The translations under genes were made by a program, and so were the position numbers. Below the pieces are notes generated by a model, which was not told where the DNA came from, searched no databases, and worked only from the letters and a program-made list of their open reading frames with translations. A stretch of 64,000 nucleotides of DNA from Motilibacter deserti (GTDB taxonomy: Bacteria; Actinomycetota; Actinomycetes; Motilibacterales; Motilibacteraceae), in assembly GCF_011250635.1 (NCBI RefSeq), contig NZ_JAANNP010000004.1, positions 124,001 to 188,000 of the forward strand, written 5' to 3'. Position 1 is the first letter of the stretch. The number at the start of each line of letters is the position of its first letter. This document shows positions 9,278-64,000 of the stretch, in pieces.

Positions 9278-9991
9278 ATGGGTATGGCCCCCCGCGTGAG
9301 TGCTCCTCGCCGCCGTCGGTCCCGCGCCGCAGCCGTCGTTGCGCTGTCCCTCCTGCTGCTGCTGAGCGCGTGCAGCGTCAGCGTCGGCGACCCCGACGAG
9401 GTGCCCGAGCCCGAGCTCGTCGAGGACGGCAAGGTCACCCTGGACCTGCGGGCCCGGCCGACGCGCGAAGCGCTCGGCCTGGTGACCGGGGACAACGGCC
9501 ATTTCGAGGACCGGGCCACCGGCTCCGACGGCATCGAGGTCACCGTCCTGCTGCCGACCGGCAGCGTCCGCCTGCGCGCGTTCGGCTTCGGCTCGGAGTC
9601 ACTGGGCCACCCGCAGGAGCCCGTCGTGGACTCGTTCACGGCCCCGCCGAGCAGCAGCGTCGTCAACACCAACTACCCGTCCTTGCAGGCGGCCGCGGAG
9701 CAGCTGTACGCCTCCCGCGACGTCCTGGGGCTCGACGAGCAGGACCTGGCCACGCTCGCCGGCCCTGGCCCGGAGGGCGGCGGCAGCGGGGTCGGCGTCA
9801 TCGAGGGCCTGCGTGCCGGATGGCTCGAGGTCGACGTCGAGCTGCGCGGCGGCACGACCGGCGGGCCGAACGTCAACTACCTGTTCCGCTACTACGACTC
9901 GCGCTCGCGTGGGGCCGTGGTCAGCAGTCTGCCGGCACCGGACGCCGACGGTTCCCAGCACCGACCGGCCGACGACACCCGCTGTTCATGA
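9278..9991 (+). CDS. Lipoprotein of unknown function
   Basis: 237 residues. Arg-rich n-region, Leu-rich core and lipobox LLSAC place the lipidated Cys near residue 32, so the mature protein should be anchored on the outer face of the membrane. The mature part is acidic at first (DPDEVPEPELVEDG) and then mainly beta-like. It contains a stretch around residues 110-145 with SVVNTNYPSLQAAAEQL. No known domain is recognised. The ATG at 9278 gives the complete lipoprotein signal, and another ATG two codons later is equally possible. It lies between two other exported proteins on the same strand and is followed 22 bases later by the metallophosphoesterase, so co-transcription with that gene is plausible. 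Confidence 0.75.
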   Translation: MGMAPRVSAPRRRRSRAAAVVALSLLLLLSACSVSVGDPDEVPEPELVEDGKVTLDLRARPTREALGLVTGDNGHFEDRATGSDGIEVTVLLPTGSVRLRAFGFGSESLGHPQEPVVDSFTAPPSSSVVNTNYPSLQAAAEQLYASRDVLGLDEQDLATLAGPGPEGGGSGVGVIEGLRAGWLEVDVELRGGTTGGPNVNYLFRYYDSRSRGAVVSSLPAPDADGSQHRPADDTRCS

Positions 9992-10013
9992 CACGTCGGA
10001 AGCCTCCGGGTGC

Positions 10014-11789
10014 ATGACCACTCGACACGGCAGCCCCGCGCTGCGGGCACGCCGCGCCGCCCTGATCCCGCTCGCCCTAGCGAGCTCCGTCGCCGCGGTC
10101 ACCGGGCTTCCGGCTCCTGCGGCCGCCGCCGCCGCCGACGACCCGGCCGCCGTCTGCGCCGCGATGGACGACGGCGTCCACCTGCGCATGGACGGCCGGG
10201 GCGACAGCCTGCTGACCACCTCCCGTGAGGAGGCCGATGCTGCCGCCTCCGGGCGGGGCTACACCGACGACGACGGCGTAGCCTTCCTCGCCGCAGCCGC
10301 GGCCGGACCCGGCAGCGAGCCCGTGCACCGGCTGCAGCACCCCGGCAGCGGCCGCACCGCGTACGCCCTGCACCCGGCGCGGATCGCGGCGCTCCAGGCG
10401 GCGGGCTACGTCCTGCAGGCCACCCCCGCCTTCCACGCAGTGGCCGACGCCGAGCCGTGCCTGGACCCGGTCTACGAGCTGGTGCGCCCCGGCGACGGGC
10501 AGCAGCGCCTCGCGGTGACGAAGGGCCAGCGCAAGGAGCTCGAGGCCGACGGGTTCCGCTACGTCGGCGTCGCGTTCCACTCCGGCACCGACCGGCAGTT
10601 CTCCATCGCCGTCATCCCGGACACGCAGCACGAGGTCCACGTCACCAAGGCCAACAACGTCTTCACCCACCGGGCCCAGTGGCTGTCGGACAACGAGGAC
10701 GCGCTCGACCTGCGCTACATCACGCACACCGGCGACGTCGTCGACTGGGACACGCCGAACCATGAGCAGTACGAGAAGGCCAAGCCCGGCGTCGACATCC
10801 TCGACCGCACGGGCATCCCGTACTCCTTCGCCATCGGCAACCACGACACGATGGCCACCGACGTCGGGGGCAGCGCCCGCCCGGGCCAGGACACCCGCGC
10901 CAACCAGCGCATCACCGACACGTTCAACGCCTACTTCGGGGTCGACCACGTCGAGAACCTGCGCGGCGCCTATCAGCCGGGCAAGGTCGACAACATCTAC
11001 ACCACCTTCGCGGCCGGCGGCGTCGACTGGCTCGTGCTGCACCTGGAGCTGTGGCCGCGTACGGAGACGGTCCGCTGGGCGGACGCGGTGATCGCCGCTC
11101 ACCCCGAGCACAACGTCATCGTCAACACGCACTCCTTCCTCACCGGCGACGGCAGCGTCTACCAGACCAACGGCGGCTACGGGGCGAACAGCCCGCAGTT
11201 CCTCTGGGACCAGGCGCTCAAGAAGCATGCGAACGTGCGCTTCATCCTGTCGGGCCACACAGGGCAGTGGGCCTACCGGGCGATGACGGGGGACCACGGC
11301 AACCGGGTGGCCGCGATCAACACGACCCTGCACGACACGACGCAGAACCCGACCCGCATCGTGCAGTTCGACACCGCCTCGGACTCGATGGCGAGCTACG
11401 TCTACCGGCCGTGGTCCCAGACCTACCTGACGACCGCTGCGCTCGACCTGGACCGGCTCGACCTCGTCGTCCCGGCCGAGGAGCGTGTCGAGCGCCTCAC
11501 CGCGCGGGTCGTCGGGCTGCGCGACGGCGGCCGCCTCGCCCCGCACGTCGCCGCCTCGCTGCTCGAGCGGCTGGACCGCGCGACGCGCGTCCTCGCCGAC
11601 GGGAGCGAGCAGCGGGCGATCGCGGCGGTGGAGCAGTTCGCGGCGCGAGTGCGCAACCAGGTCCGCGGTGACGCGGACGACCTGGCCGTGCGAGCCGAGC
11701 TGGACGCGGCCGTCTCCCGGCTGAGCAGCCTGCTCGCCGCCGTGGACGCGGCCGAGGCCACGGCGGCGAGCACAGCCTCAGCTATTTGA
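10014..11789 (+). CDS. Secreted calcineurin-like metallophosphoesterase with C-terminal FIMAH domain
   Basis: 591 residues from the ATG at 10014, which begins a clear signal peptide ending in an Ala-rich stretch near residue 40. The central domain carries the metallophosphoesterase motifs VIPDTQ near 201, HTGDVVDW near 242, IGNHD near 278 and SGHTGQW near 419, which hold the two metal ions. The last 100 residues, from about 490, are helical with the pattern LEQFxxRVRNQVR and match the FIMAH domain, often found at the C terminus of exported enzymes. The substrate is unknown; phosphodiester or phosphomonoester hydrolysis outside the cell is expected. A second FIMAH domain in the window is on the degenerate multicopper oxidase near 60.3 kb. 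Confidence 0.88.
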   Translation: MTTRHGSPALRARRAALIPLALASSVAAVTGLPAPAAAAAADDPAAVCAAMDDGVHLRMDGRGDSLLTTSREEADAAASGRGYTDDDGVAFLAAAAAGPGSEPVHRLQHPGSGRTAYALHPARIAALQAAGYVLQATPAFHAVADAEPCLDPVYELVRPGDGQQRLAVTKGQRKELEADGFRYVGVAFHSGTDRQFSIAVIPDTQHEVHVTKANNVFTHRAQWLSDNEDALDLRYITHTGDVVDWDTPNHEQYEKAKPGVDILDRTGIPYSFAIGNHDTMATDVGGSARPGQDTRANQRITDTFNAYFGVDHVENLRGAYQPGKVDNIYTTFAAGGVDWLVLHLELWPRTETVRWADAVIAAHPEHNVIVNTHSFLTGDGSVYQTNGGYGANSPQFLWDQALKKHANVRFILSGHTGQWAYRAMTGDHGNRVAAINTTLHDTTQNPTRIVQFDTASDSMASYVYRPWSQTYLTTAALDLDRLDLVVPAEERVERLTARVVGLRDGGRLAPHVAASLLERLDRATRVLADGSEQRAIAAVEQFAARVRNQVRGDADDLAVRAELDAAVSRLSSLLAAVDAAEATAASTASAI

Positions 11790-59005: not shown

Positions 59006-60205
59006 TCAGCCGCCGTGGCCCTCGTGGCCCGCGTGTGCGTCCTCGTCGCCTCCGCCGGGGACGTCGCTCTGGCTGATCGTCGGCGACCCCGCGACCTGGG
59101 CCTTCGCGGGCTCGCTGCCTCCGTGCGCGGCGTGCCCGCCGGCGGACATCATCATGGCGGCCATCTCGCGGTGGTTCGCCATGTGCTCGGTGTGCCCGGG
59201 CGGAGGCGTCCCGTCGGCGTTGTTGACGGTGAAGATGCCGATCATGCCGCCGTCGGAGTGGAACTGGACGTGGCAGTGGTACATCCACGTGCCCGGCCCG
59301 ACGTGCTCGCCGGCGATGATCTGGAAGCCGAACGACTCGCCGGGGCCGGTGGTGCGGTTGTCGATGACCGAGGTGCGGTCGTCGTCGCCGGAGAGCAGGC
59401 CCGTGCGGTTGTCGGCCCACCGATGAGCGTGGGTGTGGAACGTGTGGAACGACGCGACACCGTGGGTGATCATGATCCACTCGACCCGCTGGCCGAGATT
59501 GGCCGAGTAGTTGATCGAGTCCGGCACCGCCGAGTTGTTGATGGTCAGCTCGTTGAAGACCGTGACGAACTGCTTCTCCGGCAGCGGGTCGCCCGGACGG
59601 CGCACGACCAGCGCGCCATAGAGCCCGCGGGTGATGCCGTCGGTGCCGTGCGCCGTCCCGACCGCGTGGTCGTGGTAGTGCCAATACCCTGCCGACCCCG
59701 GCTCCCACGTGCCGTCCGCGCGCTTGGTGGGAGCGTGCGTGCGCCACACGTAGGTGTGCCGTGCGCCCGCTGCCACCACGGACCCGTTGGCCGGCGTCCC
59801 GTCGTCGGCCGCCGGCACGTCCACGCCGTGAGCGTGCAGCGACACCGTCAGCGACGTCGTGTTGACCAGCGTCACGCGGATCTCGTCGCCCTCGATCGCC
59901 TCGATCGTGGGGCCGGGGATGCTCGCGTTCTCGGGAGTGGTGCCGTAGGCGAGCCGGTTGCCCGGCCCCGCCACGGCGTACAGCGTCACCTCGCGGACGG
60001 TGCCTCCGGCACCCGCCCGCGGCACGGTCCCGAGCGGCCTCGGGTCCTCCTGGTCGTCACCGATCGCCAGGCCCGGACGGAGCACGACGGCCGCGGCCGC
60101 CGTACCCGCGAGCCCGCCGAGCAGGGCGCGCCGCCCGACGCGCTCACCGCCGGTGCGGTCCGCGCCGCCGCCGTCCACGGCGTTCTCCAGGTCCGTCGCC
60201 GACAT
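59006..60205 (-). CDS. Two-domain multicopper oxidase (laccase-like), Tat-exported
   Basis: 399 residues, ATG at 60205, which overlaps the upstream gene's stop by one base (TGATG). The signal has twin Arg in RVGRRALLGG, suggesting Tat export with copper bound. All copper ligand motifs are present: LHAHGVD and WHYHDHA in domain 1, FHTFHTHAHRW and YHCHVQFHSDGGMIG in domain 2 with the type-1 Cys and His. Two-domain laccases work as homotrimers, with the trinuclear copper site between subunits. The C-terminal 55 residues are rich in Met, His and Gly and could carry extra copper. Phenols or metal ions are usual substrates. It is co-translated with the degenerate paralogue. Confidence 0.93.
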   Translation of the reverse strand: MSATDLENAVDGGGADRTGGERVGRRALLGGLAGTAAAAVVLRPGLAIGDDQEDPRPLGTVPRAGAGGTVREVTLYAVAGPGNRLAYGTTPENASIPGPTIEAIEGDEIRVTLVNTTSLTVSLHAHGVDVPAADDGTPANGSVVAAGARHTYVWRTHAPTKRADGTWEPGSAGYWHYHDHAVGTAHGTDGITRGLYGALVVRRPGDPLPEKQFVTVFNELTINNSAVPDSINYSANLGQRVEWIMITHGVASFHTFHTHAHRWADNRTGLLSGDDDRTSVIDNRTTGPGESFGFQIIAGEHVGPGTWMYHCHVQFHSDGGMIGIFTVNNADGTPPPGHTEHMANHREMAAMMMSAGGHAAHGGSEPAKAQVAGSPTISQSDVPGGGDEDAHAGHEGHGG

Positions 60206-61671
60206 CAGCGGCCGCCCTCGGCGGCGTCGAGGGCACCGAGCTCGGCGATGAGGGCCTGGGCGTCCCGCAGGAGCACGGAACGGACCTCCGCGTTGCTGCG
60301 CACCTGGTTCTCGACCCGGCTGATGAACTGCTCGAGCAGGCTGATCGCGCCGGACTCGCTGCCGGACGTGGCCTTGCCGGCCGCCCGCGTCACGCGGTCC
60401 AGCAGCCCCGCTCGCGTCGTCTCGCTCATGGGCAGGCTGGTGACCAGGGCCTGCAGGTCCGCGAACGACGTCTTCGTCGTGAAGCGCACGGTCGTGGTCG
60501 TGTCGCCGCCGGTGCCCTTGCCCACCACGACCAGCTCGTGCTGCCCCAGCGGCAGCGTCCACAGCCGGAGCGCCGCGCCGTTCTCCAGCGGCTGGCCGTC
60601 GAGCGTGGCCGAGCTCGCCCCCGTCGCGGCCCCACCGGTCACGGTCCAGCTGACGGTCTTCGTGAGGGAGTCGCCGTACGTCTCACCGTCCGCGATGCCG
60701 GTGACGGTCACCACCGGGGCGGGGCTCTCCAGCACGTCGAACCAGCCGTAGACGCCGCGGTCCCAGAACAGCGCGACGTGCGTGTGGTACTCGAAGCGGC
60801 CGGGGCCGACGCGCTCTCCGGCGATCACCTGGAAGCCGAAGGAGTCGGCCGGGCCGACCGTGCGGGTGTCCACGATCTGGGCGCCGTCGTCCGGGCCCGA
60901 GATCAGGCCGGTGCGGTTGTTGGCCCAGCGGTGGCCCTTGAGCGAGAACGTGTGGAAGGAGTTGCCGTGGGCGATGACGACCCACTCCACGCGCTGGCCC
61001 TGCCGGGCGGTGAAGGTGGGGGTGTTCGGCGCGACCTTGTTGTTGATGTTCGCGTCGTTGATGACCACGATGTTCTGCACGTCGGGCAGCGGGTCGCCCG
61101 CGCGCCGGACGATCAGCGCTCCGTACAGGCCGCGCCGGATGCCCTCGGTGCCGTGGGCGCTGCCGTTGAGCGCGTGGTCGTGGTAGTGCCAGTAGCCGGC
61201 GCTGCCCGGCGTGTAGACCCCGTCCGCACCCATGCCGCCCTCGTGGCTGCGCCAGATGTAGGTGCGCTCCTCGCCAGCCGGGATCGCGGTGTTGGTCTGC
61301 AGGCTGCCGTCGCTCTGGATGTCGTAGTCGACCCCGTGCGGGTGCGCCGACATGACCCGTCCGGTCTGGTTGATGACGCGCAGCCGAAGGGTGTCGCCCT
61401 CGACCATCTCGAGCGTCGGACCGGGGATGCTCGCGGTCTCGGGGGTGTAGCCGTAGGCGAAGTTGCCGTCCGGCAGGGCCACGGCGTAGATCGTCACGTC
61501 GAGGGTCCGGCCTCCGACGGCCGCTTGGCCCTTCTTGACCGAGACGTCCTGCGCGGCCGCGGTCACCTTGGGGACCGCCACAGCAGCCGCCGCGGTGCCG
61601 ACGATGCCCGCGAGCAGGGCCCGGCGGGCGAAGCGGTCAGTGCGCACCGGGGGAACGGCGGTGTCTTCCAT
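60205..61671 (-). CDS. Degenerate multicopper oxidase paralogue fused to a FIMAH domain
   Basis: 488 residues from the ATG at 61671, with GAGGAG nine bases upstream; an RR-containing Tat-like signal is present. Domain 1 keeps AHPHGVD and WHYHDHA. Domain 2 aligns with the downstream oxidase (VEWVVIAHG, GHRWANNRTGLISG, FGFQVIAGERVGPG). Where that enzyme has FHTFHTHAH this one has FHTFSLKGH, and where it has YHCHVQFH this one has YHTHVALF. The type-1 Cys and His and two trinuclear-site His are gone, so laccase activity on its own is unlikely. A beta domain follows (about 345-410), then a FIMAH domain (about 415-480, LLEQFISRVENQVR). It is first in the operon, coupled by TGATG to the intact oxidase. 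Confidence 0.88.
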   Translation of the reverse strand: MEDTAVPPVRTDRFARRALLAGIVGTAAAAVAVPKVTAAAQDVSVKKGQAAVGGRTLDVTIYAVALPDGNFAYGYTPETASIPGPTLEMVEGDTLRLRVINQTGRVMSAHPHGVDYDIQSDGSLQTNTAIPAGEERTYIWRSHEGGMGADGVYTPGSAGYWHYHDHALNGSAHGTEGIRRGLYGALIVRRAGDPLPDVQNIVVINDANINNKVAPNTPTFTARQGQRVEWVVIAHGNSFHTFSLKGHRWANNRTGLISGPDDGAQIVDTRTVGPADSFGFQVIAGERVGPGRFEYHTHVALFWDRGVYGWFDVLESPAPVVTVTGIADGETYGDSLTKTVSWTVTGGAATGASSATLDGQPLENGAALRLWTLPLGQHELVVVGKGTGGDTTTTVRFTTKTSFADLQALVTSLPMSETTRAGLLDRVTRAAGKATSGSESGAISLLEQFISRVENQVRSNAEVRSVLLRDAQALIAELGALDAAEGGR

Positions 61672-62196: not shown

Positions 62197-62242
62197 CCTT
62201 GTGCTGCGTGCACGCCGCTCGCGACCTCAACGAGGAGAGTCA

Positions 62243-64000
62243 ATGCACGTGCGTGTACGGCGCTGGGTGACCCTGGGCATGGGGTCACTCCTGGCGCTAT
62301 CCGTGGCAGGCCCGCCAAGTGCAGAGGCCGCCACCGCTCAGGCAACCGTCAAGGCGGCGGCTGCCGCCGCCGTCGTCCCCAACGTCCTCGTCTTCCACGG
62401 TGCCGCGGCCCAGCAGGACGACCCGGTGGCCCAGGCGGTCACCACCCTGCAGGGCCTGGGCACCGCGAACGGCTTCGCCGTCGAGGCATCGTCCGACCCG
62501 TCGGTCTTCACCGCCGCCAACCTGGCGAAGTACCGCAGCGTCGTCATGCTCTCCGCGGAGGGCGTGACACTGTCGGAGGCGCAGGAGGCCGCCCTCCAGG
62601 CCTACATCCGGGCCGGCAACGGCTTCGTCGGCATCCGCGACGCCGCAAAGGTCCAGAAGGACTCGGCGTGGTTCACCGGTCTGATCGGCGCTCGTCCGGC
62701 CGGCATCGCCCGGACGCCGGAGGCCGCCGAGTCGGTGACCGCGAGCACGCCGAGCCCGGCGAACGAGACCGCGGTCAACCTCATCGACAACAACACCTCC
62801 ACCAAGTGGCTGGTGTTCGCGCGGACCGGCGTCATCACGGTGAAGCTGAAGGCGCCCACCGTCGCGTCCGGCTACGCGATCGGCTCGGCCAACGACTCGG
62901 AGGACCGCGACCCGCAGAACTGGACGATCCAGGGCTCGACCGACGGCAACACCTGGGTCGACATCGACAGCAAGACGGGCCAGGACTTCCCGCAGCGCTT
63001 CCAGATGCGGTCGTTCGCCCTCGCGGGCAACACCCAGTCCTTCCAGTGGTACCGGATGAACATCACCGCCAACAGCGGTGCCGCCGAGACCCAGCAGTCC
63101 GAGTTCCAGATCTTCGGCCCCGAGCCGACGGGCCCGCCGCCCACGGTCCCCGCCCAGCAGGCAGTCGTCGAGCTCGTGGACCGGCAGCACCCGGCGAACG
63201 CGGGCCTGCCGCTGACGTGGACCAGGACCGACAAGTGGACCAACTGGGCCGACAACCCGGTGGGCACGGTCCACACGGTGGCGCAGGTCCGCGAGGCCAG
63301 CTACACCCCGGGTGACGGCGCCAACGGTGCCTTCCACCCGATCTCCTGGTGCCGTGACTACGACGGCGGCCGCTCCTTCTACACCGGCATGGGCGGCACC
63401 GCGGCGAGCTACTCCGAGGAGGGCTTCCGCAGCCACCTCAAGGGCGCGCTGCTCTGGGCGACCGGCATGGTGCGCGGCGACTGCAAGGCCACGATCGGCT
63501 CCAACTACACGATCGAGCGCCTGACCGCGACCAACCAGCCCAACCAGCTCGACCAGATCGGTGAGCCGCACGGCCTCACGATCGCGCCGAACGGCAAGGT
63601 CTTCTACGTCGGCAAGGCGGCCTGCCGCACCGCGCCGATCAACGACTGGAACAACCCCAACCACGGCCTCGGCTGCGGCACCATCCACGAGTACGACCCG
63701 ACGACCAAGTCGGTCAAGCTCCTGACGACGCTCGCCGTCATGGGCCACCGCGGCGGCGGCACCGAGCTCCAGAAGAACGAGGAGGGCCTGCTCGGCATCG
63801 TGCCGGACCCCAAGTTCATGGAGAACAACTGGCTCTACGTCTACTGGATGCCGCACGAGACGGTCGACCGCGTGCGCCACGTCGGCAAGCGCACCGTCTC
63901 GCGCTTCACCTACGACCCGGCCAACCGGACGATCGACCAGTCGACCCGCAAGGACATCCTGCAGTGGGAGACCCAGGTCCACAGCTGCTGCCACGCGGGT
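62243..64000 (+). CDS. Secreted ThuA domain with inserted F5/8C module, followed by glucose/sorbosone dehydrogenase-like domain (3' end outside window)
   Basis: 586 residues are visible from the ATG at 62243, which has GAGGAG six bases upstream; the frame is open to the last base. A Sec signal ends near residue 33. A ThuA half (about 47-163, VPNVLVFHGA to RAGNGFVGIRDAAK) is interrupted by an F5/8-type C (discoidin-like) module (about 164-291, with NLIDNNTSTKW). ThuA then resumes (about 300-405, with GRSFYTGMGG and GALLWATGM). From 413 a soluble glucose/sorbosone dehydrogenase beta-propeller begins (EPHGLTIAPNGKVFYVG, EEGLLGIVPDP, HSCCHAG). Such proteins act on extracellular carbohydrate, with PQQ as a possible cofactor. 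The remainder lies beyond the window. Confidence 0.88.
   Translation, partial: MHVRVRRWVTLGMGSLLALSVAGPPSAEAATAQATVKAAAAAAVVPNVLVFHGAAAQQDDPVAQAVTTLQGLGTANGFAVEASSDPSVFTAANLAKYRSVVMLSAEGVTLSEAQEAALQAYIRAGNGFVGIRDAAKVQKDSAWFTGLIGARPAGIARTPEAAESVTASTPSPANETAVNLIDNNTSTKWLVFARTGVITVKLKAPTVASGYAIGSANDSEDRDPQNWTIQGSTDGNTWVDIDSKTGQDFPQRFQMRSFALAGNTQSFQWYRMNITANSGAAETQQSEFQIFGPEPTGPPPTVPAQQAVVELVDRQHPANAGLPLTWTRTDKWTNWADNPVGTVHTVAQVREASYTPGDGANGAFHPISWCRDYDGGRSFYTGMGGTAASYSEEGFRSHLKGALLWATGMVRGDCKATIGSNYTIERLTATNQPNQLDQIGEPHGLTIAPNGKVFYVGKAACRTAPINDWNNPNHGLGCGTIHEYDPTTKSVKLLTTLAVMGHRGGGTELQKNEEGLLGIVPDPKFMENNWLYVYWMPHETVDRVRHVGKRTVSRFTYDPANRTIDQSTRKDILQWETQVHSCCHAG

Follow-up and report, generated by a model that had tools for sequence, protein, structure and literature searches.

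Small laccases are well studied and are treated as homotrimers, and their natural role is unclear. The trinuclear copper sites of these two-domain enzymes are at subunit contacts, where domain 2 of one subunit meets domain 1 of its neighbour, and the T1 copper sits in domain 2 (PMC6650940). Mutagenesis of SLAC showed that losing the Cys, or any one of the ten ligand His, strongly reduces activity (PMC3918160). A tyrosine near the T2 copper is conserved across the two-domain laccases, where it can serve as an additional donor of electrons (PMC10539750, PMC10419308, PMC3918160). SLAC of Streptomyces coelicolor and the S. carpinensis enzyme (PDB 3cg8, 8aip, 9ix9) share the two-cupredoxin fold of the proteins described here, and the ligand layout of one of these proteins, A, is the same as theirs.

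We analysed a DNA stretch of 64,000 nucleotides (the window) from an actinomycete that encodes two such proteins, A and B, in adjacent open reading frames. Pfam matched both laccase cupredoxin domains in each product (PF07732 and PF07731 in A). The features are as follows, with the ligand positions of B taken from the ligand alignment.

59006-60205, minus strand: gene A, 399 aa; two-domain laccase, copper ligands complete, tail rich in His/Met
60203-60207, minus strand: TGATG overlap; the stop of B overlaps the start of A by one base
60205-61671, minus strand: gene B, 488 aa; two-domain laccase relative with an Ig-like and FIMAH tail
Residues 16-17 of B: RR of a probable Tat leader
60943-60945, minus strand: codon TCG, Ser243 of B for the T2 His of domain 2
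60937-60939, minus strand: codon AAG, Lys245 of B for a T3 His of domain 2
60781-60783, minus strand: codon ACG, Thr297 of B for the T1 Cys (TGC in A)
60766-60768, minus strand: codon TTC, Phe302 of B for a T1 His
60751-60753, minus strand: codon GTC, Val307 of B for the axial Met
60208-60723, minus strand: Ig-like and FIMAH tail of B, residues 317-488
62201-64000, plus strand: divergent neighbour of B; start of a 1346-aa protein that extends beyond the window end

Copper ligands and selection in genes A and B

The alignment showed all 12 ligands in A (ten His, the T1 Cys and the axial Met). At the position of SLAC Tyr108, where the family has its tyrosine beside the T2 copper, A has Val130 in both genus members, and valine was found there in no other sequence compared. 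This tyrosine is conserved but is not a copper ligand, and we did not take it as defining a two-domain laccase.

Aligned to A, B retained seven of the 11 His/Cys ligands: H110, H112, H162 and H164 in domain 1, H240 of the T1 site, and H296 and H298. The trinuclear ligands of domain 1 are complete, and B also keeps Tyr116 (the T2 tyrosine) and Asp121, both of which are domain-1 contributions. The T1 site (two His, Cys and Met) is reduced to H240, and the trinuclear set of domain 2 is incomplete, with S243 and K245 in place of two of its four histidines. The first-pass annotation had listed the Thr, Phe, Ser and Lys substitutions and the retention of both HxH pairs of domain 1 (H110/H112 and H162/H164), all of which we saw in the alignment; the change of the axial Met to Val (V307) is a fifth ligand change that was absent from its list. 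B has the fold and sequence features of the two-domain laccase family, and judged from its sequence it is a relative of laccases, not itself a laccase. Because any single loss of a ligand His or Cys in SLAC cuts activity, B is very unlikely to work as a laccase by itself.

The A-B pair, its one-base TGATG overlap and all five substitutions in B recurred in the other genus member examined. The Cys to Thr change had been argued not to be a read error, and this held, because the same residues were present in an independent congener whose B is 90% identical, and dN/dS was 0.14. Between the two genus members, dN/dS for B was 0.14 overall (dS 0.42), with 0.10 for domain 1 and 0.08 for domain 2; thus, B is under purifying selection. 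The values for A were about 0.10 per domain and 0.22 overall, the latter being higher because of variable ends. Absence or frameshift of B in close relatives had been proposed as a sign against joint assembly. B was intact in the one other genus member examined and absent from the three other genomes of the family (the rest of the order examined), one of which had two intact, unlinked laccases and two of which had no such laccase. An exact-peptide scan for B in 84,980 genomes found only tail relatives, in Nonomuraea. No damaged B-type copy turned up among the plasmids searched, where the best matches were single Streptomyces laccases.

We compared B with 67 other two-domain laccases, calling a position conserved if it was the same in at least 92% of them. 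Private losses of B numbered 0 among the 47 conserved positions of domain 1 and 11 among the 53 of domain 2, and five of the 11 affect ligands; three further losses in domain 1 were all common to A. The asymmetry between domains was significant (Fisher p = 0.0007; p = 0.026 without the ligands), in tests that were post hoc and treated related sequences as independent, and it rests on one long branch, with B known from two sequences. Given the published site geometry, losses in domain 2 mean that B would keep its entire contribution to the neighbouring subunit's site while having lost its own domain-2 site. The pattern is complementary, in that A alone has lost the tyrosine on the T2 side.

AlphaFold2 modelled the cupredoxin domains of B with pLDDT mostly from 91 to 99, and 78-86 at the former T1 loop and shortly beyond it, from an alignment made largely of intact laccases. 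Foldseek matched the model to known two-domain laccases at an rmsd of 1.3-1.6 A; the model thus predicts that B keeps its fold although these ligands are gone. The tail of B was modelled with low confidence, because B was folded without relatives of the tail (tail fragments were misplaced in the mixed alignment).

Tandem laccase pairs in a second family

We searched 394 genomes of the class and afterwards one family together with its genus and order, and found tandem pairs of two-domain laccases in eight of the 15 species of another genus (g19, family f17), in the same gene order as B and A. In all eight pairs the upstream copy had a folded tail in place of the short one rich in His/Met, and its downstream partner had all ligands. 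A T1 His was changed to Tyr in six of the eight upstream copies; in one of these six the axial Met and a T3 His were missing too. In the comparison of 79 sequences, a folded tail was found only in these eight upstream copies and in the two B genes. All eight kinds of ligand change in tailed upstream copies fell in domain 2. None of the five ligand changes in unpaired laccases did so; all five were at one domain-1 His. In these unpaired laccases the His that opens the WHYHDH motif, a T3 ligand, is replaced by Gln, Asn, Thr or Trp, with the other ligands complete.

L066:3110-4384, L076:3102-4328, L134:1093-2349, L135:943-2226 and L136:1132-2457: unpaired WHYHDH variants

The two remaining tailed upstream copies, in genomes G517 and G529, had an intact T1 site. 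Within each of these genomes (loci L109 and L110) the tandem copies were 99-100% identical in domain 1, and the intact site was probably acquired by gene conversion from the partner. In g19, dN/dS was 0.14 to 0.38 for the damaged upstream copies and 0.18 to 0.34 for the downstream copies. The best tree separated B from the damaged g19 copies (log-likelihood 25.8 better), with a single clade left unrejected by the AU test (p = 0.23). Because both the tails and the substitutions differ between the two lineages, we argue that the tail fusions of B and of the g19 copies were independent.

The g19 pairs resemble A-B in having a tailed upstream copy, with a damaged T1 site in most cases, ahead of an intact, His/Met-tailed downstream copy. 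They differ in their milder damage, in a tail domain that has no Pfam match, and in the lack of gene overlap. The TGATG coupling had been offered as support for joint assembly; it is kept within the genus, but because the g19 pairs do without it, it is no general requirement. We found no report of the g19 pairs in the literature searched.

Neighbouring genes and tail domains

The 1346-residue neighbour of B carries ThuA, F5/8C, glucose/sorbosone dehydrogenase, PKD, 3-keto-disaccharide hydrolase and FIMAH domains, as read by Pfam on the sister-genome ortholog, which is 92% identical (L172:702-5862). Next comes a gene whose product, a blue copper protein, has a plastocyanin-like domain. The assemblies of both genus members end inside this blue copper gene (at the end of L172 and the start of L026), perhaps at Ig-like repeats. 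At 41 laccase loci with enough flanking sequence, from four actinomycete families and tallied by hand, the ThuA/dehydrogenase gene adjoins the laccase in 30, and either it or a blue copper gene is present in 36. A named example is plasmid p1 of Streptomyces fungicidicus, where an annotated ThuA gene adjoins the multicopper oxidase, and another Streptomyces plasmid has a laccase without a ThuA neighbour. The presumed ligands of the blue copper domain (His, Cys, His and Met) were kept in all 21 aligned sequences. This neighbourhood suggests that small laccases may be the oxygen-reducing last step of a chain that oxidises sugars outside the cell. We found no paper describing the cluster of ThuA/dehydrogenase, blue copper protein and laccase in the literature searched. 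The conserved neighbourhood offers a concrete, testable proposal for the role of small laccases, and the wider cluster may be a more useful result than the subunit pair.

The C-terminal helical tail of B, which lies behind an Ig-like stretch that separates it from the cupredoxins, matches FIMAH (PF22888). The match scored 23.5 bits on the whole protein, just below the cut-off of 24.8, and exceeded it when the tail was scored by itself (26.1 bits) and in the genome scan (27.5 bits). The whole genome has 54 FIMAH matches, and the copies examined elsewhere in it were on larger, probably secreted proteins. Other large, probably secreted proteins end, as B does, in an Ig-like and FIMAH tail. Another FIMAH in the window forms the end of a probable metallophosphoesterase (9813-11789, plus strand). 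Among the laccases compared, only the two B genes carry FIMAH. The g19 tail, about 99 residues long and without a Pfam match, was confidently predicted to be an all-beta domain; it occurs in 3 to 14 copies per g19 genome checked, mostly in frames of at least 800 residues. Besides the upstream laccase, it is found on the blue copper protein and on several large proteins (L059, L060, L109, L110, L139, L178, L179). The tail of the damaged g19 laccase was 74-78% identical to the C-terminal domain of the neighbouring blue copper protein. Because the damaged laccase of each lineage carries a tail that is widely used in its own genus, a docking site shared by the tailed proteins is the simplest reading. 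The tethering of B outside the cell by its FIMAH, as proposed in the first-pass annotation, is plausible.

A proposed two-subunit laccase and its alternatives

We see just under an even chance that A and B assemble together into a secreted trimer of the small-laccase type, in which the working sites are formed from domain 1 of B and domain 2 of A and the complex is anchored by B. In such a trimer B would give every domain-1 contribution (the four His, Tyr116 and Asp121); its own domain 2 would be unable to bind the T1 copper or to do its part in the trinuclear site, and A would bring an intact domain 2. The site between domain 1 of B and domain 2 of A would be complete in A2B or AB2 trimers. 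From the geometry, only sites built with domain 1 of B would have the tyrosine. Counted around a mixed ring, complete sites would number two in A2B, one in AB2 and none in B3. The tail of B, which is common on secreted proteins of the genus, would keep the oxidase at the extracellular location of its cluster partners.

Mixed assembly, chimeric sites and anchoring are what we infer from these data. The idea of mixed trimers was raised in the first-pass annotation and has come through each test applied here; the damage confined to domain 2, the loss of the tyrosine in A, purifying selection and the second set of pairs all add to it. Because of the complementary losses and the second set of pairs, the proposed mixed trimer is better supported now than when it was first suggested. 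Domain 1 of B may instead be conserved for folding or trimer packing and not for copper, laccases without the tyrosine may still work, and two of the eight tailed upstream copies in g19 have an intact T1 site. A stricter version, which we regard as distinctly unlikely, is an obligately mixed laccase whose only active site lies between domain 1 of B and domain 2 of A, held by the tail of B in an extracellular assembly in which electrons pass from a secreted sugar dehydrogenase and a secreted blue copper protein, the products of the neighbouring genes, through the laccase to oxygen.

The domain-2 site of B cannot be completed within a B3 trimer, domain 2 is tightly constrained all the same (dN/dS 0.08), and B has its own tail and leader. 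These observations would suit a separate, non-catalytic anchor or ligand-binding protein that forms its own trimers without working copper, a surface cupredoxin beside an A that works alone. We judge this unlikely but deserving of weight, since it leaves unexplained why the four His, the tyrosine and the aspartate of domain 1 were kept against 11 losses in domain 2, why the tyrosine was lost in A alone, and why tailed upstream copies always lie beside an intact copy. The seven ligands that remain in B, together with the blue copper protein encoded in the cluster, could also point to a chaperone or store for copper or another metal, in which these His would hold metal and pass it on to A, with no oxidase chemistry involved. 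That role appears improbable: B lacks the His-rich or Met-rich tail found in nearly every intact member, and its residual ligands make up half-sites, which would have to be closed by domain 2 of a neighbour.

Any mixture of A and B would have fewer working sites than A3, given the ligands and the geometry (PMC6650940), and B might therefore enter mixed trimers solely as a dominant brake, or dosage control, on the number of active sites per trimer. A pure brake, however, needs neither conserved domain-1 ligands and tyrosine nor an extra tail, and we think it quite improbable that B is one. The loss of several ligands would also be expected of a decaying duplicate kept by chance, and two of the eight g19 pairs are near-identical, which implies that duplication and conversion are frequent. 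This origin for B is disfavoured by its dN/dS of 0.14 at a dS of 0.42 with no frameshift; five substitutions are identical in both species, the tail module is conserved and the layout recurs in another family, so that we see hardly any chance of it.

If the mixed A/B trimer is real, with one subunit retaining only its own half of a copper site that both share, the pair would be a case of subunit complementation in nature. We found no paper on such an arrangement when looking for a laccase with FIMAH, with ThuA and plastocyanin, or as a heterotrimer or pseudoenzyme. The core of B is about 49-53% identical to SLAC-type two-domain (type B) laccases. SLAC-type enzymes are homotrimers of one gene product, whereas here there is a second gene, with most of the copper set of domain 2 missing and an Ig-like and FIMAH tail added.
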